Origin: Fusibacter paucivorans
GTDB taxonomy: Bacteria > Bacillota > Clostridia > Peptostreptococcales > Acidaminobacteraceae
DNA length: 64,000 nucleotides
Direction of reading: 5' to 3'
Assembly (NCBI RefSeq): GCF_018390735.1
Contig: NZ_JAHBCL010000012.1
Coordinates: 1-64,000, forward strand
Part shown: piece by piece, positions 6,278 to 38,686 of the stretch
How the letters are laid out: each line of letters starts with the position of its first letter
How positions within the stretch are numbered: the first letter of the stretch is position 1
Notes under the pieces: generated by a model
The model's database searches: none
What the model was told of the DNA's origin: nothing
The model's input: the letters and a program-made list of their open reading frames with translations, nothing else
Translations under genes and position numbers: made by a program

Positions 6278-7387
6278 TTACAACTTTTTATAATCGTAAA
6301 TCATATCCTGTGCTTTTTTAAGAAGCACTTTGTTTCGCGGTTTCATTTGAACGACTTTTAATAAATAATTCTTAGCACCTCTAATATCGTCAAATTCTGC
6401 ACACAGCCTTGCGAGCTTGATGGCGAGTTTTATTTCATCATCTTGACTAAGTGCCATCGTACCATTATACCATGCATCTTCATAGTAGACTTTCAATACT
6501 TTACGCGCCTCAAGTGCGGTAGCTTGATCGCCGACATCATCCAGAAGCCAAGCGTATGTCTGCCACAATCTCGCTTTGACAAAACTGGATTTCGTAATCT
6601 GCTGAATCAGCAAATTCATCTGGTAGATATCATCGAAAATCTGCTGATAGTTTTCTTTAATCAGCACCTCGTGCTGAGGCGTTTCATATCTTGGCAGCGT
6701 CACTTTGAGCTCAGCGCGCACAAGGTTGTTAATCTTATGAAATTCATTGGAAAAGTGCGTATAGTGGCAGTATGGACAGCGCCAAATCTGATACCAAAGT
6801 TCATCAATATCATAAAAGTGTTTTCGAAAGTCGTCGTCCATGTGATCGAATTCCATTTTGGATGCCTTTACCTGATTAACTTTGAAGGTGTACTCACAAA
6901 CCGGACACACCACTTCTTTGGAAAACAGATATTCCTGATGTACGGCAGGGAGCTGTTTATGATAATGCCTTTTGGCATTAATTCGAAAATCCGATTCATC
7001 TTTAATAATTTCAACCGCTTTTTTCGAATAATGGCATTCACCCATGGTTAACTTGTCATTATAATTTTCCAGCATATCACTCATATACGTTAAGAGTTCC
7101 ATCGCTTTAAGCGGATGCGTGCTGATATACTGATCAAGATAGTTTAAATGAATATAACAAATGACAGAAGGTTCCAATATTTTTGCCGTATAAACAGCGT
7201 GTTCGCCCGCCAGTGCTCGTTCAGGTTCTACAAAAGCCCCGGGTCTAATCACTTCAACAAAAACATCAGGGCCAGAAGTACTTCGACTGAGCCCAACGGC
7301 CCCTGATTTAACGAGGAATAGGCCTTCAATGACATCGCCGATACTGTACAGTGTGGATTCAGGTTTCAGTTCCATTTCATTGATCAT
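6278..7387 (-). CDS. Degenerate cyclic-nucleotide-binding fold fused to DUF2225
   Basis: The start is Met20 of the ORF track (MINEMELKPES), with GGAAAGGAG about 11 bases upstream; it overlaps the preceding gene by 11 bases. Residues 1-110 form a Crp-like beta-roll, but the phosphate-binding cassette is damaged: where active members have FGE followed by R-S/A-A/T, this one reads FVEPERALAGEHAVYTAK and lacks the arginine. It may therefore not bind cAMP or cGMP. The rest is DUF2225-like, with two CxxC pairs (VCPVCEYTF and WRCPYCHYTH) that probably bind one zinc, then a helical TPR-like tail ending in VQMKPRNKVLLKKA. The cotranscribed neighbour is an intact cNMP-binding protein, so the pair may work as a heteromer (inference). 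Confidence 0.8.
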   Translation of the reverse strand: MINEMELKPESTLYSIGDVIEGLFLVKSGAVGLSRSTSGPDVFVEVIRPGAFVEPERALAGEHAVYTAKILEPSVICYIHLNYLDQYISTHPLKAMELLTYMSDMLENYNDKLTMGECHYSKKAVEIIKDESDFRINAKRHYHKQLPAVHQEYLFSKEVVCPVCEYTFKVNQVKASKMEFDHMDDDFRKHFYDIDELWYQIWRCPYCHYTHFSNEFHKINNLVRAELKVTLPRYETPQHEVLIKENYQQIFDDIYQMNLLIQQITKSSFVKARLWQTYAWLLDDVGDQATALEARKVLKVYYEDAWYNGTMALSQDDEIKLAIKLARLCAEFDDIRGAKNYLLKVVQMKPRNKVLLKKAQDMIYDYKKL

Positions 7388-7778
7388 GCTGGCAAAGACT
7401 CCTTTCCTCACATTTTTGACGAACGCTTTGAATACGCATTGCAAGCGTTTTTAACATCGTATGCGCATACCTTGATTCAAGCATAATAAACTTGCTGAAG
7501 TTTTCTCTTGCGATGCAAAGGGTGATAACCGGTTCAACCGCAGTCAATGTCGCCGACCTGAAATGATCCCGGATAACAGCCATTTCACCAAATACCGCAC
7601 CTGAATCGAGCTCTGCGAGCACAATGCTCTCACCGTCAAAATCACTCTGCTTGGAAACGCTTACTTTACCGGAAAGCAAGATATATAGCGCGTTTCCCAT
7701 TTCTCCTTCCGAAAAGATCACTTCATCTTTTACAAACTGTTTAATGGTCCCAATTTCTCTTAAAGCTTCGTTCATCAT
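7377..7778 (-). CDS. Single-domain cyclic-nucleotide-binding protein
   Basis: A 133-residue protein that is nearly all one Crp-type cNMP-binding domain. The binding cassette is intact: FGEMAVIRDHFRSAT near residues 64-78, giving the Glu and Arg that hold the ribose and cyclic phosphate. The turn GEMGNALYILLSGKVSV at about 25-41 is also standard. There is no helix-turn-helix or enzyme domain, so it should act through a partner, most simply the overlapping DUF2225 gene product. Its start lies 18 bases after the MFS gene stop. A cyclase capable of supplying cAMP is encoded in the same window at 30.6-32.4 kb. Confidence 0.87.
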   Translation of the reverse strand: MMNEALREIGTIKQFVKDEVIFSEGEMGNALYILLSGKVSVSKQSDFDGESIVLAELDSGAVFGEMAVIRDHFRSATLTAVEPVITLCIARENFSKFIMLESRYAHTMLKTLAMRIQSVRQKCEERSLCQHDQ

Positions 7779-28291: not shown

Positions 28292-29782
28292 TTAATTCTT
28301 AAACTGCCATGCATCCGTATGTTCGAAAATTTTCAACAGCTCACCATCGAGCTTGCCTTCTTTTACCATGTTGCCCAAAATCATAAAGGCACGTTCTGGC
28401 GGCATCCCCTTTTTGTAAGGTCTGTCTGTTGCCGTCAGTGCATCGTAAATATCAATAATGGTCAGCATTCTGACTTCTGTCGAAATTTCATCGCCTTTCA
28501 GTCCTCTGGAATAGCCTGAGCCATCAAGGAATTCGTGGTGATTAACTGCCCAGCACGGCACTTCTTTAAGATCTTTTGGAAATGTCATTTTTGAAAGCAT
28601 TTTTTCAGTCGTCACAACATGGTTTTCCATAATGGTACGCTCTTCATGCGTTAGCGTTCCGCGCTGAATTCTGAGAAATTCATATGCTTTATCCGTTAAG
28701 AGCGATTCTTCAACGCCAATAAAGTGGCGCATATAAATCTCATCAATATCGCGCAAAAGTGTCTCATCGACAAAAGTACTCGGTTCATTGACCTTTTGGA
28801 CAATTTCCCGCGCGTGTTTGATAAATGCCAAATCCATTTCCCAAAGTTCTCGTGCTGTCGCCTGTACAGTGTCCGGTTCAATCAGCGCCTGATAATAGCG
28901 TTCATTAATTTTCGCTTCAATGAGCTCGATTTGCTTTGAAACAATGTCAAATTCCGATGCCAGCCTCGTCGGTTTGTTCATGACGTTTTCCGGGACCGTT
29001 ACCTTGCCAATATCATGCACCCATGCTGCCATAACGAGTCTTTTAATGTGCTCTTCATCAAAAAAAGTACCTGCATAAGGCCCTTCCTGCCAAGTATTAA
29101 TCGCTTTGGCAAATCGTTCTACAAAGACGGCCACATTACGAGAGTGATTGGCATTATATGGCGTTCTTTCCTCGACGGCAGTCACCAGCACTTTGACAAA
29201 AGAATCGAATAGACCGCGAATATTCTCAACATACTGCATGTTTTCAAGAGCGACCCCCGCTTGCGAAGAAAGTGCAAGGCATATTTTCTCGATTTCTTTA
29301 TTAAACGGAACGAGTTCTCCCTCTTCAATGGCATTGATTAGCTGAACAACACCAATCACTTCATCTGAGCGATTAATCAGCGGCACGGCCATCATCGACT
29401 TTGTAACATAACCTGTTTCTTTATCAAAATTTTTAGGTCCGGAAAAATCAAAGAGATTGGTATGATAGACATCGGGGATGTTGACAGCAGTCTGATGAAT
29501 TGCCGCATAGGCTGAAATATTGGCTTCATCCATAACAATAGGAGCAAAGCCAATACTTTCACCGCCGCCTCCCAAAAAGACATTCATTGAAACATTCTGC
29601 ATAATTTTATGACATAATTGGCCTTCCGTTAAAATATACAGGGTTCCACCATCTGCATTGGCAATTTTACGCATCTCGGTCAAAATGAGTTCCAGCAGAC
29701 GATTGTAGTCTTTCTCTGCTGTTAATGCCATGCCCACTTTAATAAGCTTTTCATAGTAGTCATTTATCTTCGTGTTGACCAT
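28292..29782 (-). CDS. GAF domain plus HD-GYP-like phosphohydrolase with a large insertion
   Basis: 496 residues. A GAF domain (about 25-185) is followed by an HD domain (about 190-496). The HD part has NANHSRNV (213), HDIGK (256-260), HHE (415-417) and DGSGYSRG, where the GYP of the family is GYS. About 100 residues are inserted between the NKPTRL and GTLTHEERTIMENH segments, which are adjacent in ordinary HD-GYP proteins. True HD-GYP enzymes cleave cyclic di-GMP; the metal ligands appear present here, but the changed motif and insertion leave the substrate open. It is the last gene of the CHASE2 cyclase operon, 12 bases after the MBL gene. Confidence 0.83.
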   Translation of the reverse strand: MVNTKINDYYEKLIKVGMALTAEKDYNRLLELILTEMRKIANADGGTLYILTEGQLCHKIMQNVSMNVFLGGGGESIGFAPIVMDEANISAYAAIHQTAVNIPDVYHTNLFDFSGPKNFDKETGYVTKSMMAVPLINRSDEVIGVVQLINAIEEGELVPFNKEIEKICLALSSQAGVALENMQYVENIRGLFDSFVKVLVTAVEERTPYNANHSRNVAVFVERFAKAINTWQEGPYAGTFFDEEHIKRLVMAAWVHDIGKVTVPENVMNKPTRLASEFDIVSKQIELIEAKINERYYQALIEPDTVQATARELWEMDLAFIKHAREIVQKVNEPSTFVDETLLRDIDEIYMRHFIGVEESLLTDKAYEFLRIQRGTLTHEERTIMENHVVTTEKMLSKMTFPKDLKEVPCWAVNHHEFLDGSGYSRGLKGDEISTEVRMLTIIDIYDALTATDRPYKKGMPPERAFMILGNMVKEGKLDGELLKIFEHTDAWQFKN

Positions 29783-29794
29783 AGTGTTATCCTT

Positions 29795-30649
29795 TCAATG
29801 CGCCTCAAAGATGAGCTCAGAATCCTCTGCTGCAAAGAAAATGCCCTCATGATCCTTAGAGATCAGCGTTATCAACGCATCGTTCGTGCGATCTTTGCGG
29901 TACGGCAAATAATGTGTGATATAAGTTGCCTTAACATTGGCTGCTTTTGCCAGCTTAATGCATTCGTTAATCGTTGAGTGTCCCCAGCCGACTTTTCGAC
30001 TGCCTTCATTGCCGTAGTACTCATCATCGGTCATCGCGGCATCCATTACCATGACGTCAACGTCTTCAACAAATGCTTTTATGTGTTCAAAATCACTTTC
30101 GTAAGTCTGAAATTCGGGACTGAGCTCAATATCAGTCAAAAGACAAATACTAACACCTTTAAAATCGAAACGGTAACCGACAGCGCCGCCGGGATGCATG
30201 ATCGGTACATGCTTCACCTCAATATCGCCAATCATAAAAGCACCCTGCATAGGAACTTCTTCAATCACCATACGATTGGCAACAGACTGCCAGCCAATTG
30301 GGCAAAAGGGTGGATTAAACAATAACTTCATCGCATCAGTGAGCGAATAATTTTCCGGCTTAAATCCTTTAACATACAACTGATGAGGATGGGTATAAAG
30401 TGTCGAAAAGAAAGGCAGTCCAATAATATGATCCCAGTGATAATGCGTCAGCAATAGATGAATCCGCTTCGACTCAAAGATATCGTCAACCTTTGTAATA
30501 CCAGTCCCAGCATCAATGAAAACAACATCGTTTGCTGTTTCGATTTGTACGCAGCTCGTATTGCCGCCATACTTATTAATGGTTGCATTGGATAAATTGT
30601 ATGAACCTCTTACGCCTAAAAATTTTACTTTAATTTGATTTGGTGTCAT
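29795..30649 (-). CDS. MBL-fold metallohydrolase
   Basis: 284 residues, cytosolic. The metallo-beta-lactamase motif is THYHWDHIIGLPF near residues 70-82, with further ligands likely in IMHPGGA, LLTDIE and the C-terminal ITHYLPYR. The N-terminus, FLGVRGSYNLSNATINKYGGNTSCVQIE, puts it in the group with the GGNTSC signature that is often found near signalling genes; some relatives are phosphodiesterases. It overlaps the cyclase gene by 20 bases, so the two are translationally linked. A role in degrading the cyclase product is an attractive but untested idea. Confidence 0.82.
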   Translation of the reverse strand: MTPNQIKVKFLGVRGSYNLSNATINKYGGNTSCVQIETANDVVFIDAGTGITKVDDIFESKRIHLLLTHYHWDHIIGLPFFSTLYTHPHQLYVKGFKPENYSLTDAMKLLFNPPFCPIGWQSVANRMVIEEVPMQGAFMIGDIEVKHVPIMHPGGAVGYRFDFKGVSICLLTDIELSPEFQTYESDFEHIKAFVEDVDVMVMDAAMTDDEYYGNEGSRKVGWGHSTINECIKLAKAANVKATYITHYLPYRKDRTNDALITLISKDHEGIFFAAEDSELIFEAH

Positions 30650-32438
30650 CTGAACGTATCCCCTCCACTTCGTAGATTGGTATCATTGTCTCCTTACCCT
30701 TCACCTTGATCTCACCAAGCGGTTTGACATCAACACGCTCTTTAACGAGATCATAGGTCGTCTGACTAATTAGTATTTGCCCTGGCTTAGCATTTGATTC
30801 AAGACGCGCAGATGTATTGACAGTATCTCCGATGGCAGTATAATCCATTCGGCGTTTTGATCCAATATTGCCGACAACCGCATAGCCGGTATTGACACCG
30901 ATGCCAAAATCGACTGTTTTGCCAAAGCGCTCCAGCAGCCCTTCTTTTAAAAGTGCAGCCCCTTGTTTCATATCCCAAGCAGTTTTGACCGCATAAAAAG
31001 CGTGATCTTCAAGCTCCAGCGGCGCGTTGTAGATTGCCATAGTCGCATCACCAATGAATTTATCCAGCGTGCCTTTATTCGTAAAAATGGACTGTTCGCA
31101 TAGATCCAGATAGCTGTTGAGAATTTCAACGATCTCTTCCGGCTCACATCGTTCTGAAAGCGGTGTAAATCCTCTAATATCAACGAAAAGCACTGAAATA
31201 AACCGTCTTTCACCACCGAGGTTGATGCTGTCAGAATCCTCTAAAATCTTATTGACAACCTGAGGTGCAACATAGCGTCCAAAGAGCGATCGAATGCGTC
31301 GTTTCTCGTTCAATTGCTCCAAATAGTGGTAGGCCAAAGCCGTTACATACAGAATACCCATTGTTAAGAGCGGATAAAAGAGTTCAAGCACATACCCCTG
31401 CTCGTAGACTTTTTTACCGATGAACAAGTAACCCACGGCGATAAGTATGAGAATGCTAAGCCCTTTAAGCGGCGAAAAACGTTCTGAAATAAAAAATGTC
31501 AGTATTGCCAATACGAGAATTGTCACGAGGTTAAACACTTCCGGCGCTTGTGTCTTTAAGCTGTCATCAAAGAGATTTTGCAGAATATTCGCGTGAATTT
31601 CAACCCCGAACATTGGCTGTTCCTGAACGACGGGCGTGATGTACTCGTCTAGGAGGCCGTTGGCGTATGGCCCAATTAAAACAATTTTGTCCTCAAAATA
31701 ACTTGGCGGTATCATTTCATTATAAACAAGTGCATAGGGAATATTATCATATTGCCTTGGCATCCCCTTGTAATCAATAAAATAGGATTTGCCTTCCTCG
31801 GCATACTTCGTCAAGCTGTCTTCGAAGGTACTTCGCTCTGCATCTGAAATATCTGCATTTTCTGTATAAGTCTTAAAGAGCTGATAGGCAAAACTTGGCA
31901 AATAGTTGTAACTGGCATCATCAATGACAAACTGGGGTGCAAAGAGCGTCGTCTTTCGAATGACACGGTCTCCGTCCGGATACGTATTAATATGCCCTTC
32001 GACAGCGCCTGTCAACAGCTCTGGAAACTGCCTGACAAGCGTATCACTTCCCTGTTTGTAACCATTGATCTTTGGTGTATACTTGACTTGTTCAGCCATA
32101 ACGACGTTGCCGGCAGCTTCAATGGATGTCGTTAAAATCTCATCTGATGCTGCATTCGAATAGGAATCAAACAAGAGGTCGATGCCAATCGCTGCGGGAT
32201 TGCCCTGCGATATGATGTCAATGAGTTCACCGTGATATGATCGGTCAAACGGCCATTGTCCCAGCATATTGATTGATGTATCATCAATAGCAACGATGAC
32301 AATGCGGTCATCTGTTTCATTCTCACCTTGAAAATAGCTGTCATACAGCTGGTTTTCATAATTGTCGAACAAACCTTTGGCATCGGAAATCATCACAAAG
32401 GCAGCGACGATGAGAATAATGATCCACTTTTTTTTCAT
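30630..32438 (-). CDS. CHASE2 receptor adenylate cyclase (class III)
   Basis: 602 residues from Met5 of the ORF; the upstream GTG overlaps the ribosome site GGAGG. An N-terminal membrane helix leads to an external CHASE2 sensor (about 20-295; VIVAIDDTSINMLGQWPFDR is typical), then three more helices and a class III cyclase domain (about 410-595). The metal-binding aspartates are in LFVDIRGFTPLSE and KFIGDATMAI. The Lys of LDKFIGD and the Asp of RMDYTAIGD are the adenine-selecting pair, and NTSAR gives the transition-state Asn and Arg, so cAMP is the expected product. It is the second gene of a four-gene signalling operon. Confidence 0.9.
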   Translation of the reverse strand: MKKKWIIILIVAAFVMISDAKGLFDNYENQLYDSYFQGENETDDRIVIVAIDDTSINMLGQWPFDRSYHGELIDIISQGNPAAIGIDLLFDSYSNAASDEILTTSIEAAGNVVMAEQVKYTPKINGYKQGSDTLVRQFPELLTGAVEGHINTYPDGDRVIRKTTLFAPQFVIDDASYNYLPSFAYQLFKTYTENADISDAERSTFEDSLTKYAEEGKSYFIDYKGMPRQYDNIPYALVYNEMIPPSYFEDKIVLIGPYANGLLDEYITPVVQEQPMFGVEIHANILQNLFDDSLKTQAPEVFNLVTILVLAILTFFISERFSPLKGLSILILIAVGYLFIGKKVYEQGYVLELFYPLLTMGILYVTALAYHYLEQLNEKRRIRSLFGRYVAPQVVNKILEDSDSINLGGERRFISVLFVDIRGFTPLSERCEPEEIVEILNSYLDLCEQSIFTNKGTLDKFIGDATMAIYNAPLELEDHAFYAVKTAWDMKQGAALLKEGLLERFGKTVDFGIGVNTGYAVVGNIGSKRRMDYTAIGDTVNTSARLESNAKPGQILISQTTYDLVKERVDVKPLGEIKVKGKETMIPIYEVEGIRSDDTKSN

Positions 32439-32453
32439 AAGTGCCTCCACACA

Positions 32454-34922
32454 TTATTTTTCTGCAATGATATTGCCGTCGCTGTCAACAATCTGTCCTA
32501 TTCCCTCTATCATTGGCTGATCTACCATTTTGAAGATTGCGACATTGTCGAAAATGATATTCGACGTGTCATCAATCTTGAATAATCCGTTTTGTCCTTC
32601 ATACATCATATAACTGTTATCCCTTATTGTAACATTTTCAAAGTGGACATCCTGTGTAGCAGCAAATTGAAGAACCTGCTCACCATTTCGCAAAAGACCT
32701 GTATTGGCAATGGTGATATTTGATGCATGATCTAGCTTGATGGCACTCGCTTGACAATCGCTGATAAGACTATTGGTTACATGAACATCTTCAGTATTTT
32801 CAAGGTTGATGCCGCGATAACCGCAGCCATATAAGATCATATTGTCAAAGTGCAAATCGTGTCCATCCTTTACGGCAATCACGTCGCCAACGCAATAGGC
32901 ATAAATATGCCCCACCCGCAGATTATCGAAATAGATATCAGAAACAGATTGCAGTTTAATCACTTCCATATAGGCATCTGTCACAAGATCTGCCTGTATG
33001 CCGCCCTCTGCAATAATTGTCAGTCCCGACAAATCCTTAATGATTAAGGTGCCATCTTCACATGAAACATACGGATTTTCAAAGTTGTCATATGGAATCT
33101 GATAAAGCCCTGCTTTTAAAACGACTTCGGTATCGGGGGCAATTGCCTCAATGAGTGAAATGCCGTCAGATACTTCAACACGATTCGTTCGAACAGGTTT
33201 AGCAGCGGTCGCCTTGCGCTCAATGGCTTTAAAATCAGCCTGTTGTTGAGTCGCTTCATGAATCATCTCAGCATCTGCAGCATAGCCCAGATCATTTAAA
33301 TACTGGTTGAGCGCCTCAGTGTATTTGCCGTTTGCCGAATCAAGGTATACAACTATCTTTTTGAATATTGCTGTATACTTTGATTTAGGATATTTTTCGA
33401 TATATTGATGGTAAGTATTATAAAAGTCCGGTTGAATATAGCCTCCAGCATAATACTTCGTGCCATCCATTTCGAAGGACAATGGCACTGCAAGGGTCTC
33501 GAAAAAGTAATCGGCATAGTAAGCGGCATCATCAAATGCCGGCTCATTTGGATACGATGCAGCGGCCGTTTCAAAGAGATACATTGCATCGGCAATAACT
33601 TCAGGCTGCTGAATAAGATAGCCTTCAGAGTAGACTGGGAATATGCTATACTGTTGCTTTTTAAACGCTATAAATGTCTTAATTTCATCAGATGTCATCG
33701 GCATATTCCGATCGAGATATGTCGCCATTGTCTCAAAATACGGATAGCCTTCAGCAATATAAATACCAAGTCCATTGCTTGACAATAAACGGGAAACAGC
33801 TGCCGCTTCAGCACTGTTTTGATCTGAAGGTGCCGTTAAGACGAGATCACCGGTCTCATCATCATAATGATAATATTCAAAAATAGACGTGATTGGATCA
33901 TCCGATTCGCCAATGATGAGATCCACACCAAAATTGCCCATCATCCATTCATAAAAATCGGTAAAGCGCTCGACTAATTCAAAATCATTTTCTGCATGCT
34001 CAGCGAATAGATTGAGCATTACTTTCGCACGTGAAACACTTCGAATATCATTTGAATCGAGCATGGCGATGTATTCCTCATAAGCACTGTAAAGGGATGA
34101 ATCATCATGTTCTGATTGCCACAGCCAAGCTTTTTTCGTGCCGTCTTCTACATAAAACGCCATTTCATCACCGCGATAAAAAGCTTTCAGTGTCTCTGAC
34201 GGGTTAACATAGTGCGAAATATAATTGCTGTCAGGAGCCGAAGCTGTCTTAACGAGCCGCTGTGTAACGACTGTATCATTGTCACCGAGAATCACTTCAA
34301 CGACACCATCAGTCGCACCAAAACGAAAAGTTTGAACTTTAGAAAAAAGATTGACAGATCGATCCTCTGTTTTTGCCTCATAACGGACTTCAATATCGCC
34401 GTTTTCTTCAATTGCCATTATCGTCGCCGTAATATCCATAAACCCATATTGTGAATCAAGACGTTCTGTATCCCATGTATTGCCTACGGCCAACGGCTTT
34501 TTCAATAAAACGGTTTCTATGCCTTCCTTGTAATAATATGAAACGCTGTCCGCAGATACTTTTAACTGATAAAGTGATGACAGATCGCCGCTTTCGCCGT
34601 CTGACATATCCTCTTGATTGCTTTCCACGAGATAAAGACGATAGGTTTCAGGCGACTTGATGTCATCAATGCGTTCAACCGTATCTGTTCGATAGTATTC
34701 GCCCGCACCCTCGTAGTGCAGTGTTTCCTGTGCTGTGTAATCAAACATTGCATAAAAATCGACATCCATAAGCTGCGCTGAACCCGTGTCACTTAAATCC
34801 GGTGTCTCTTGAACAGGCTGAGTTTGACATCCTGTTGCAAATCCCATCGCGATAATGATGGCAGAAAACACCATCATTTTTATGTATGTCATCATTGTTT
34901 TTTTATTTTTGTACTGTTGCAT
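32454..34922 (-). CDS. Large lipoprotein with C-terminal parallel beta-helix
   Basis: 822 residues. The N-terminus ends in a lipobox, FATGC, so it should be anchored outside the membrane. The first 600 residues are mostly a mixed region with many Tyr, Asp and Glu and no family I know. From about 640 the protein has right-handed beta-helix repeats of the NosD/pectate-lyase-like kind: units such as LHFDNMILYGCGYRGINLE and VHVTNSLISDCQASAIKLD. It is the first gene of the operon with the CHASE2 cyclase, 15 bases upstream, and both have large external parts, so it may be the ligand-binding partner of the sensor (inference). GAGGTGATAA precedes the ATG. Confidence 0.8.
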   Translation of the reverse strand: MQQYKNKKTMMTYIKMMVFSAIIIAMGFATGCQTQPVQETPDLSDTGSAQLMDVDFYAMFDYTAQETLHYEGAGEYYRTDTVERIDDIKSPETYRLYLVESNQEDMSDGESGDLSSLYQLKVSADSVSYYYKEGIETVLLKKPLAVGNTWDTERLDSQYGFMDITATIMAIEENGDIEVRYEAKTEDRSVNLFSKVQTFRFGATDGVVEVILGDNDTVVTQRLVKTASAPDSNYISHYVNPSETLKAFYRGDEMAFYVEDGTKKAWLWQSEHDDSSLYSAYEEYIAMLDSNDIRSVSRAKVMLNLFAEHAENDFELVERFTDFYEWMMGNFGVDLIIGESDDPITSIFEYYHYDDETGDLVLTAPSDQNSAEAAAVSRLLSSNGLGIYIAEGYPYFETMATYLDRNMPMTSDEIKTFIAFKKQQYSIFPVYSEGYLIQQPEVIADAMYLFETAAASYPNEPAFDDAAYYADYFFETLAVPLSFEMDGTKYYAGGYIQPDFYNTYHQYIEKYPKSKYTAIFKKIVVYLDSANGKYTEALNQYLNDLGYAADAEMIHEATQQQADFKAIERKATAAKPVRTNRVEVSDGISLIEAIAPDTEVVLKAGLYQIPYDNFENPYVSCEDGTLIIKDLSGLTIIAEGGIQADLVTDAYMEVIKLQSVSDIYFDNLRVGHIYAYCVGDVIAVKDGHDLHFDNMILYGCGYRGINLENTEDVHVTNSLISDCQASAIKLDHASNITIANTGLLRNGEQVLQFAATQDVHFENVTIRDNSYMMYEGQNGLFKIDDTSNIIFDNVAIFKMVDQPMIEGIGQIVDSDGNIIAEK

Positions 34923-34953
34923 TTATCACCTCATACTGATACGACTTGATTCT

Positions 34954-34981
34954 ATTATACCCTAATAATGATATGACACAA
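34954..34981 (-). promoter_or_regulatory. Promoter of the CHASE2 cyclase operon
   Basis: Minus strand: TTGTGT (34981-34976), 16 bases, TATAAT (34959-34954). The -10 is perfect and the -35 weak, so an activator may be needed. The leader would be about 25 bases. Confidence 0.5.
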
Positions 34982-35597: not shown

Positions 35598-36302
35598 TCA
35601 GATGCTAGACAAATGCGTCTGCAATTGCTCAATCACAGCTGCCGACATTGGCGCCACATCTGCTAAAGGGCATGGCATACTGAGCTTTTCCCATTTCGCC
35701 ATCCCCATCTTATGAAATGGCAGCAGTTCAATGCGCTCTCTACTGCTAGATGCCGTTAATTTTGCCAATTGTTCAATTTGTACCTTACTGTCTGTAATCC
35801 CAGGAATAATCACTTGCCTAATCCAATAATGAATTGCATCGCGTTTCAAAACATCTAAAAATGCCAAAACTTGTTCTAATTGTCCGCCTGTAAGCTGGTA
35901 AAAAGCTTCGGCATTCGTATGTTTGATATCCAACAGTATTAAATCTGCCAAGTGAACGGCTTCATCGACAGCCTGTGACCAAACGGCACCTGAAGTATCA
36001 ATGACCATATGGATTCCTTCTCCTTTGAGGCGATGCATCAGCGACACCAAAGCCGTCGCCTGTCTCAACGGCTCGCCGCCTGAAAACGTAACACCGCCGC
36101 TGTCTTTAAAATAGGGTTTCATTCTTAAAATACGACGGAAGAGTTCATCTTCCGTCATCATTTTACCAGCCTCATAAGACCATGTATCCGGATTATGACA
36201 ATAACCACAGCGCAGCGGACAGCCCTGTAAAAACACAACAGTTCGAATACCCGGCCCATCCAGAGCACCTAACGTTTCTATACTGTGAACACTTAGTGAC
36301 AT
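35598..36302 (-). CDS. pflA: Pyruvate formate-lyase activating enzyme
   Basis: A radical-SAM enzyme that makes the glycyl radical on PflB under anaerobic conditions. The cluster motif is CPLRCGYCHNP near the N-terminus (CxxxCxxC), followed by FSGGEPLRQ, which binds SAM, and later DLILLDIKHT and RQVIIPGITD. 234 residues is the usual length. I prefer the second of two adjacent ATG codons because GAGG is only two bases from the first. It lies 158 bases behind pflB, its substrate protein, and depends on oxygen-labile iron-sulfur chemistry. Confidence 0.94.
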   Translation of the reverse strand: MSLSVHSIETLGALDGPGIRTVVFLQGCPLRCGYCHNPDTWSYEAGKMMTEDELFRRILRMKPYFKDSGGVTFSGGEPLRQATALVSLMHRLKGEGIHMVIDTSGAVWSQAVDEAVHLADLILLDIKHTNAEAFYQLTGGQLEQVLAFLDVLKRDAIHYWIRQVIIPGITDSKVQIEQLAKLTASSSRERIELLPFHKMGMAKWEKLSMPCPLADVAPMSAAVIEQLQTHLSSI

Positions 36303-36463
36303 CATTACCTCTTTTAATCAGTTTGATCCGCACATGCGGTTTGTACCTATTGGTCTAGTCAAACCACTTCCATCTGAAAATACATATGCTTTAATAATCT
36401 ACAATCTACTGCATGGATCGTGCATCTGACGATACAGGATAAATACTTCAATTAAATCCAATT

Positions 36464-38686
36464 TTATAGCTGTTCATGATACGTTCTTTGTATCACTTCT
36501 TCCTGCTGTCTTCGGCTCAATTGGTTAAAATTAACGGCATAGCCTGATACGCGAATCGTTAGATTTGGATACTTATCCGGGTTTTCCATGGCATCTACCA
36601 ATTTCTCACGATTGAGCACATTGACATTTAAATGGTGTGCCTGCTGTCCAAAATAACCATCCATAATATTGACGAGATTACCCGACTGTGTATCAATGGC
36701 AGTTCCCAGCGTATGCGGTGTTATTGAAAAAGTGCAGGAAATGCCGTCTCTACAGCTGTCAAATGATAATTTCGCTACTGAATTAAGGGATGCAAGCGCC
36801 CCGTTTTTATCTCTGCCATGCATTGGGTTGGCACCTGGTGCAAAAGGCATGCCCTTTCTTCTACCGTCAGGTGTATTATCCGTTTTGATTCCATAAACCA
36901 CATTGGAAGTAATTGTCAGAATTGAAACCGTATGCTCTGCCTGACGGTATGTTTCATGTTTCTTCAACTTTTCAATAAAGCTGTCTGTCAGTGCTACAGC
37001 GATTGAATCCACTTCGTCCAGATCATTGCCGTATTTAGGGAAATCTCCGGTCACCTCATAATCGGTGATATAACCCTGTGCATTTTTTATCGGTCTTACA
37101 GAAGCGTATTTAATTGATGATAATGAGTCCGCCAGAACTGAAAGCCCAGCAATTCCAAATGCCATGTACCGGTGTACTTCTGTATCGTGGAGTGCCATCT
37201 GTGTTTTTTCATAGGCGTACTTGTCATGCATAAAATGGATAATGTTCATCGTATTAACATACTTATCGCAAAGCCATTCCAGATAAGTGTCGAGACGTTC
37301 CCAGACTTTATCAAAATCAAGCACTTCGTCATCCATCACTTGCATCGCCGGACCAATCTGCATTGCAGTCATTGTATCATAACCGCCATTGAGGGCAATG
37401 GAGAAGGTTTTTGGTAAATTACTTCGAGCACCAAAAAATTGCATGTCCTTGCCGATTTTCATTGCGGAAACACAGCAGGCAATGCCGTAATCGTCACCAT
37501 AGAGCGGACGCATTAAATCGTCATTCTCATATTGTATTGCATCGGTGAGAATTGAAAGTTCCGCACAGTATTTTTTAAATCCCTCCGGCAGGTCATTTGA
37601 CCAGAGCACTGTCATATTCGGTTCTGGTGCAGGTCCTAAATTGGTCAGTGTGTGTAAAAATCGAAAACTCGTCTTGGTTACAAGTGTCTTACCATCAAGC
37701 CCCATACCGCCAATCGCCTCTGTCACCCATAGCGGATCACCTGCGAAGAGCTCATTGTAATCCGGTGTACGCAGTTGACGCGCCATCCTGAGCTTAATGA
37801 CGAAATCATCAATAATTTCCTGAATTGCCTTCTCATCATATCGTCCTGCTGCTAGATCGCGTTCTGCATAAATATCAATAAATGTACTGACGCGGCCCAG
37901 AGACATTGCCGCACCATTTTGTTCTTTTATCCCTGCCAAATAGCCATAATAAGTCCATTGAACAGCTTCGACCGTATCAATTGCCGGTCTGCCGATATCG
38001 TGGCCATATTCAGCAGCCATCGCCTTAAGTTTTTTCAGAAAATCAATCTGCTTGTAAAGCTCTTCCGAAAGTTGAATCGTGTGCTGAAGCATCGGCCCGT
38101 TAGCAATACGATTTTTATCCTCGTGTTTGGATTCAATGAGGTAATCAATGCCATAAAGTGCGATTCGCCTATAATCGCCAATAACGCGGCCTCGACCATA
38201 GGCATCCGGCAGTCCTGTGATCACACCAGCTTTTCGCATCGCCCTGATTTCATCAGAATAGACTCTAAAAACCCCTTCATTATGAGTTGTCTTATATTTA
38301 AAATGTTCTTCAACTGTATCAGACAGCTGATAGCCATAGGCTTCACATGCCTGTCTGGCCATTCTAATGCCGCCAAAAGGGTTAACACCTCGTTTCAGTG
38401 GCTGATCTGTCTGTAAGCCAACAATAATTTCATCATGACCTTCAATCATCCCTTTGGGGTAGCTAAGCAAAGAACTAACACGTTCTGTATCAATGTCGAG
38501 TACCCCGCCGCGCTTTGCTTCTTCCTTCTTCAAAGTATTGAAATAGGCCATCAATTTATCTGTGCGCGCTGTTGACGCCTCGAGAAATGATTGATCGCCT
38601 ATATAAGGTGTGCGATTAATCGCAATAAAGTTTTGTACATCAATGGTTTCACACCAATTTCCTTTAACAAATCCAGTCCAAGCCAT
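36464..38686 (-). CDS. pflB: Pyruvate formate-lyase (formate C-acetyltransferase)
   Basis: Cleaves pyruvate with CoA to acetyl-CoA and formate by a glycyl-radical mechanism. The two adjacent active-site cysteines are in [12 protein letters not shown], and the glycine that carries the radical is in RVSGYAVNF close to the C-terminus. 740 residues is a typical length. The ribosome site is AGGAGG. Upstream lie a strong promoter and a ZTP riboswitch with an attached terminator; a small hairpin also touches the ribosome site. Together these suggest that formate, used for 10-formyl-THF and so purine synthesis, is the regulated output, in addition to fermentation. Confidence 0.96.

Follow-up and report, generated by a model that had tools for sequence, protein, structure and literature searches.

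A conserved cyclase, MBL and HD-GYP gene set in Fusibacter paucivorans as a possible cAMP-to-c-di-GMP relay

The operon and its conservation

The window, i.e. the whole 64,000-nucleotide stretch of Fusibacter paucivorans DNA that we have analysed, holds four adjoining genes on its minus strand, in the order lipoprotein, adenylate cyclase (AC), MBL-fold metallohydrolase and GAF-HD-GYP protein (span 34922-28292, Table 1). The first-pass annotation had read them as one operon, and the spacings that it gave (15 bp gap, 20 bp overlap, 12 bp gap) are exact; the four-gene set is confirmed by Pfam matches above the cut-off (CHASE2 with Guanylate_cyc, Lactamase_B_2, GAF with HD/HD_5, and Beta_helix), and the Lys/Asp pair of the cyclase that selects ATP (K460, D532) is present. 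Its lower bound at 28292 also holds, while its upper bound at 34981 lies about 59 bp too far, because the lipoprotein starts at the ATG at 34922, with AGGTG upstream.

Table 1. Features of the operon and of the CNB pair in the window
Feature	Coordinates	Strand	Basis
Beta-helix lipoprotein	32454..34922	-	ORF call
CHASE2-class III adenylate cyclase (AC)	30630..32438	-	ORF call, ATG at 32438
MBL-fold metallohydrolase	29795..30649	-	ORF call
GAF-HD-GYP protein	28292..29782	-	ORF call
Standalone CNB protein, 133 aa	7377..7778	-	PF00027 4.4e-22
CNB-DUF2225 protein	6278..7444	-	PF00027 + PF09986

Upstream of the operon, at 35598-38686, a pyruvate formate-lyase-like glycyl radical enzyme is encoded together with a radical-SAM activase, and genes of equal size occupy this position in the sister species. 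The AIM24 and DUF1667 neighbours, which we have considered as further operon members, adjoin in the sister species and are not found beside the cluster in genus g17; they have been set aside.

The host assembly is a draft (4.43 Mb, 96 contigs, 3.4% contamination); misassembly is unlikely, because the synteny is shared with a second MAG. The sister species (L020/L024, the former an uncultured Clostridiales MAG) carries the same four genes in the same order, with identities of 87% for the lipoprotein, its direct neighbourhood to the cluster being kept, 98% for the AC, 94% for the MBL protein and 95% for the HD protein. A second genus in this family (G017, G029 and G037) likewise has AC, MBL and HD side by side, with identities of 56-66%. 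The order is reversed to HD-MBL-AC in six more genomes (G011, G012, G046, G057, G068 and G095), where the cyclase is TPR-fronted; the HD gene of G012 is cut off at the contig end, and G011 has an additional second set with a double-cyclase/AAA/TPR protein. Gene order in other genomes, proposed at first pass as a check, thus recurs for AC-MBL-HD, and for the full four genes in the sister species. The high identity in the sister species, together with the recurrence of the three genes, in two orders, among nine other genomes, argues that the arrangement is not due to chance; the contiguity of the three genes in 11 genomes of the order, as AC-MBL-HD or as HD-MBL-AC, points to selection for the set and not to one inherited order.

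The set is also found in part: MBL stays with HD while AC lies elsewhere in L037; one genome, G014, has HD and MBL together and the cyclase at another place; in L034 and L035, MBL is paired with a CHASE2-AC and an NHL-repeat secreted protein, with no full HD gene directly joined. Among 99 relatives, a PF00211 cyclase is present in 17, the MBL protein in 17 and both in 14 (Fisher p ~1e-11, ignoring shared ancestry).

At the scale of the phylum, the HD protein is present in 10 genomes of a 399-genome sample, none of which is closer than phylum; these 10 include G319, where only the HD half is matched, and G402, where the gene has an in-frame stop. Of nine intervals read in detail (L082-L090), seven (L082, L083, L085-L088 and L090) have a CHASE2-AC no more than about 8 kb away from the HD gene, the expectation being about 1% for each. 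MBL directly adjoins HD in L082-L084, and is also next to the broken HD gene in L087 (G402:C82), where a GAF-HD homologue with one in-frame TGA is located between intact MBL and CHASE2-AC genes. In a 300-genome sample, MBL at E<=1e-40 occurs in 6 genomes, 5 of which also have HD; the two are on separate contigs in G155 and G358. The genes thus also go together where they do not adjoin, as HD and MBL do in these two genomes and AC and MBL in G014. The spread outside Bacillota has been sampled by three MBL loci.

The lipoprotein (822 aa; Pfam Beta_helix 8.6e-12) has a signal peptide, a lipobox-like ATGC and a C-terminal right-handed beta-helix. The second genus has full-length homologues at 31-32% identity, located 7-8 kb upstream of the cyclase. 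As a general part of the set it is thus partly supported, being conserved in two genera, as a neighbour in one and at a distance in the other; elsewhere FecR or NHL secreted proteins occur instead, e.g. one or both beside the HD homologues of L085-L087, and we have dropped the idea that the lipoprotein belongs to every such set. A large GHL10-amidase cell-wall protein (Pfam) is encoded directly upstream of the cyclase in L025 (G017), which hints at an envelope-related signal, and a gene of the same size occupies this position in L026 and L027 (G037 and G029).

Residues and folds of the encoded proteins

The AC (602 aa) matches PF05226, i.e. CHASE2, at 1.6e-51 (175.8 bits) and PF00211 at 1.8e-28 (99.8 bits). 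According to hydropathy, its CHASE2 domain is located between an N-terminal TM segment (6-24) and three further TM segments (~300-318, 323-344 and 350-368), a topology that places CHASE2 outside and the cyclase domain in the cytosol. The class III residues are present: the metal-binding D420/D464, the purine pair K460/D532 and the transition-state pair N541/R545. It is the sole class III cyclase of the genome, which has 49 GGDEF domains, i.e. one source of cAMP in a c-di-GMP-rich background.

The MBL protein (284 aa; Lactamase_B_2 1.1e-16) has a complete dimetal site, consisting of HxHxDH (H69, H71, D73 and H74), H152, D173 and H246, invariant in 23 homologues. The solved structures nearest to its predicted fold are those of 1zkp, YhfI, RNase Z and PhnP, the last two being almost equally near. 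YhfI is an MBL enzyme with a preference for cAMP/cGMP (PMC9117128). A PDB search with the single sequence returned nothing, and a profile was needed for matches. The fold and the HxHxDH motif are common to the window protein and to YhfI and the class II MBL-fold cNMP phosphodiesterases, Apyc1 and Rv1339, with which it shares 13-17% identity; it remains far under the cut-off of the NCBIfam cyclic-nucleotide phosphodiesterase model NF041851 (30.5 of 400 bits), so its substrate is read from context. PF23023 (Apyc1) matched neither the window protein nor the other members scanned, with the exception of a weak match in L092. We regard a role as a putative cAMP phosphodiesterase as plausible, by analogy with YhfI.

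The GAF-HD-GYP protein (496 aa; Pfam GAF 7.1e-10, HD_5 7.5e-33) matches, in the PDB, PmGH and V-cGAP3, followed by the GAF domains of CyaB2, PDE5, PDE2 (GAF-B) and PDE10 (GAF-B). Profile comparisons relate its GAF domain to cNMP-binding GAF domains (1ykd, 1.2e-26; PDE5, 1.8e-20; PDE10, 2.4e-11), and a structure search with the AlphaFold model (pLDDT 88) adds the GAF domain of Lcd1 with bound cAMP (5w10). Across 20 homologues, residues D120, Y125, T127, Q147 and N150 do not vary, and D120, T127 and Q147 line up with positions that we take to be nucleotide-contacting in the PDE2A GAF-B structure. The NKFDE motif is degenerate in the window GAF domain, which reads INA...F...IE, the window clade having neither the K nor the D, and it is kept partly or fully in L036, L037 and L040; because of this difference, we have classed the window domain as one that may work like the cAMP-gated GAF domains, and not as a member of them. 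PmGH has a similar GAF domain, but to our knowledge no link to cAMP or another cNMP.

In the HD domain, H213, H256, D257, K260, H388, H415, H416, D444, D447, R454 and K457 are kept; in alignment, the guanine-binding R454/K457 and the metal ligands match those of PmGH (PMC4159591). The GYP motif is replaced by GYS; a P286A substitution in the GYP loop is tolerated in PmGH (PMC4159591). Residues D183/E185 of PmGH correspond to T207/Y209 in the window protein, the positions where V-cGAP3 has S and Y. PmGH (GAF-HD-GYP, 4mcw, PMC4159591) is the closest solved full-length homologue, alike in layout and almost so in its metal ligands, but it has a trinuclear iron site and lacks a helical insert of ~95 aa (residues ~276-371), which in the window protein separates HDxGK...K270 from RGTLTxEER and occurs throughout its family.

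The GAF domain is also found on a different output. In a cluster of family f104 (L092, G421:C1:1042000-1053000), made up of a class III cyclase of the AAA-TPR type, a GAF-GGDEF protein, an MBL protein and a second GAF protein, a GAF domain homologous to that of the window is fused to GGDEF beside the cyclase and MBL, so that the shared output appears to be c-di-GMP metabolism. Since the GAF domain stays with the cyclase whether it is joined to a c-di-GMP hydrolase or to a synthase, the best reading is that it serves c-di-GMP enzymes as their cAMP receptor; judging by its domains, the L092 cluster is the predicted synthase counterpart of the relay proposed below.

A further pair of proteins with CNB domains is encoded in the window 20 kb from the operon (Table 1). 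The standalone CNB protein carries the canonical phosphate cassette FGEMAVIRDHFRSAT, and among the 11 CNB matches of the genome it is the only one with the R-x-A-T cassette of cAMP-binding domains; the cassette is conserved in all standalone CNB proteins. Of the 99 genomes, 6 have this form, and each of the 6 has AC and MBL (p ~3e-6, not tree-corrected). Five other genomes also have the pair, and in one of them (L040) a distance of ~1.3 kb separates it from the HD gene in an HD-MBL-AC cluster; it is missing from several genomes that have the three-gene cluster. We consider the CNB and CNB-DUF2225 proteins a likely candidate for a second cAMP effector.

A proposed relay and the alternatives

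The reading that we put forward, with a confidence slightly above even, is that the operon is a self-contained cAMP-to-c-di-GMP relay; it draws on gene content, catalytic residues, conserved clustering, co-occurrence, and fold and domain matches. In this relay, a signal from the envelope or from outside the cell would reach the lipoprotein, CHASE2 or both, with a proposed link between lipoprotein and CHASE2, and would determine the activity of the cyclase; the cyclase would make cAMP from ATP; on binding to the GAF domain, cAMP would switch on the HD-GYP domain of the same protein, activation being the predicted direction of the effect; the HD-GYP domain would hydrolyse c-di-GMP, the presumed product of the GGDEF domains of the genome; the CNB and CNB-DUF2225 pair would be a probable second receptor of cAMP; and the MBL enzyme may hydrolyse cAMP, resetting the relay.

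The first-pass annotation had proposed that a cyclic nucleotide is sensed for, made and removed within one operon. This survives as regards the unit, and the MBL protein is a plausible remover; the HD protein as a second remover of the same nucleotide is probably wrong, since a true HD-GYP domain combined with a cyclic-nucleotide-type GAF domain is better read as a cAMP-controlled c-di-GMP effector. The window HD protein is thus probably a putative cAMP effector with c-di-GMP output.

More tentatively, and with a confidence somewhat below even, the order-variable Bacillota set may be a full cAMP-to-c-di-GMP converter, consisting of a cyclase, a cAMP-gated HD-GYP or GGDEF protein, a cAMP phosphodiesterase and an interchangeable secreted sensor, with CNB and CNB-DUF2225 as a second and new type of effector for cAMP.

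An unlikely variant of the relay keeps cAMP as the signal, with the HD domain acting on 3'3'-cGAMP or serving as a catalytically quiet cAMP receptor and CNB/DUF2225 as the main effector. The second best HD match, V-cGAP3, is cGAMP-specific, and the GYS variant, T207/Y209 and the canonical CNB cassette are in line with this; however, the metal ligands are complete in the HD homologues, several genomes with the three-gene cluster do without the CNB pair, and the 49 GGDEF domains favour c-di-GMP, though hybrid GGDEF domains that make cGAMP exist.

Somewhat less probable still is that the MBL protein, coupled to the HD enzyme, has another substrate (e.g. RNA, a diphosphate or linear pGpG). RNase Z and PhnP resemble it both in sequence and in fold, and its partner in L037 is HD; this is opposed by its pairing with AC in L034 and L035, as well as by the top fold matches, which are the cAMP/cGMP phosphodiesterase YhfI and its relative 1zkp.

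The original model, in which both hydrolases remove the nucleotide made by the cyclase and c-di-GMP is not involved, we regard as improbable. The mammalian GAF-containing cNMP phosphodiesterases do belong to the HD superfamily, and the insert of 95 aa could have altered the substrate of the HD domain; yet this domain belongs to the HD-GYP type and has all metal ligands as well as the residues for c-di-GMP (R454, K457 and Y424), its best fold matches are c-di-GMP and cGAMP enzymes, and the L092 GAF domain is fused to a c-di-GMP synthase domain.

A Pycsar-type anti-phage system, i.e. a cyclase with a cyclic-nucleotide effector, is very improbable and has been rejected: the PADLOC Pycsar cyclase models (1.3e-24) and the Pycsar TIR-effector model do match, but on generic cyclase and CNB domains, and the cyclase has CHASE2, TM segments and an adenylate-type K460/D532 instead of a pyrimidine-selecting pair, with no TIR or TM effector beside it and with a putative phosphodiesterase and an HD-GYP protein, not a toxin, as conserved partners.

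Relation to known systems

The cAMP-to-c-di-GMP relay that we propose has known parts, and as assembled in Clostridia it would be new. The combination was not recognised as a described system at first pass, which holds in part: clusters of a CHASE2 cyclase, a cAMP phosphodiesterase, FecR and a TPR protein are known from Campylobacterota (PMC9239204), while our literature search, which reached few subscription papers, found no description of the set of cyclase, MBL and GAF-HD-GYP proteins. The Campylobacterota clusters share with the window the CHASE2 cyclase and the cAMP phosphodiesterase, putative in the latter; they have a secreted FecR, as several clostridial clusters have FecR/NHL proteins, and they include a TPR protein, and in the accessible text HD-GYP is not named as a member (PMC9239204). 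At the window itself, a beta-helix lipoprotein stands in place of FecR and TPR, and FecR occurs in L085-L087.

The closest parallels to the proposed logic are Tlr0485 (GAF-HD-GYP) and Lcd1 (GAF-GGDEF), both cAMP-activated (PMC8846402). Tlr0485, likened here by layout and not by sequence, has the same GAF-then-HD-GYP arrangement and the same proposed logic, in which cAMP turns on the breakdown of c-di-GMP; the window differs in placing the gene in a clostridial operon with a cyclase and a putative cAMP phosphodiesterase, in its degenerate NKFDE motif and in the 95-aa insert of its HD domain. Lcd1 of Leptospira, a fold match of the window GAF domain, feeds cAMP into c-di-GMP metabolism and shares its GAF-GGDEF layout with the L092 protein, but it synthesises c-di-GMP, which the window HD protein is predicted to hydrolyse. 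Bd1971 of Bdellovibrio (CNB-EAL, PMC6717892) is likewise a cAMP-gated c-di-GMP phosphodiesterase, with CNB as its sensor and EAL as its catalytic domain. The CHASE2 cyclases of the Sinorhizobium CyaD1/CyaD2/CyaK-NsrA-Clr system (PMC13001267) are signalled via a separate envelope protein; unlike the window, this system has an outer-membrane barrel, a CRP-type output and no HD-GYP.

The role of cAMP as a messenger in Firmicutes is debated, most of them being without an adenylate cyclase, and Tyr-86 of TrmD has been put forward as a marker of those that make it (PMC5217690). The TrmD of the window genome has the Tyr; the marker is uninformative here, because among 97 TrmD sequences of the relatives Tyr/Phe is about equally common with and without an AC (14/16 and 74/81, respectively; Fisher p 0.64). 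The cluster would offer a compact test of cAMP in Firmicutes, since a single genome combines one cyclase with one likely cAMP phosphodiesterase and two candidate receptors. If the proposed relay is true, c-di-GMP turnover would be under the direct influence of cAMP, no CRP-type transcription factor being involved, and DUF2225 proteins could be assigned a role. If the wider converter reading is true, it would supply a complete cAMP pathway for a part of Clostridia in which no such pathway has so far been described. In the window, the CNB pair is located downstream of an MFS transporter gene and is followed by a deoxynucleoside-kinase-like gene.
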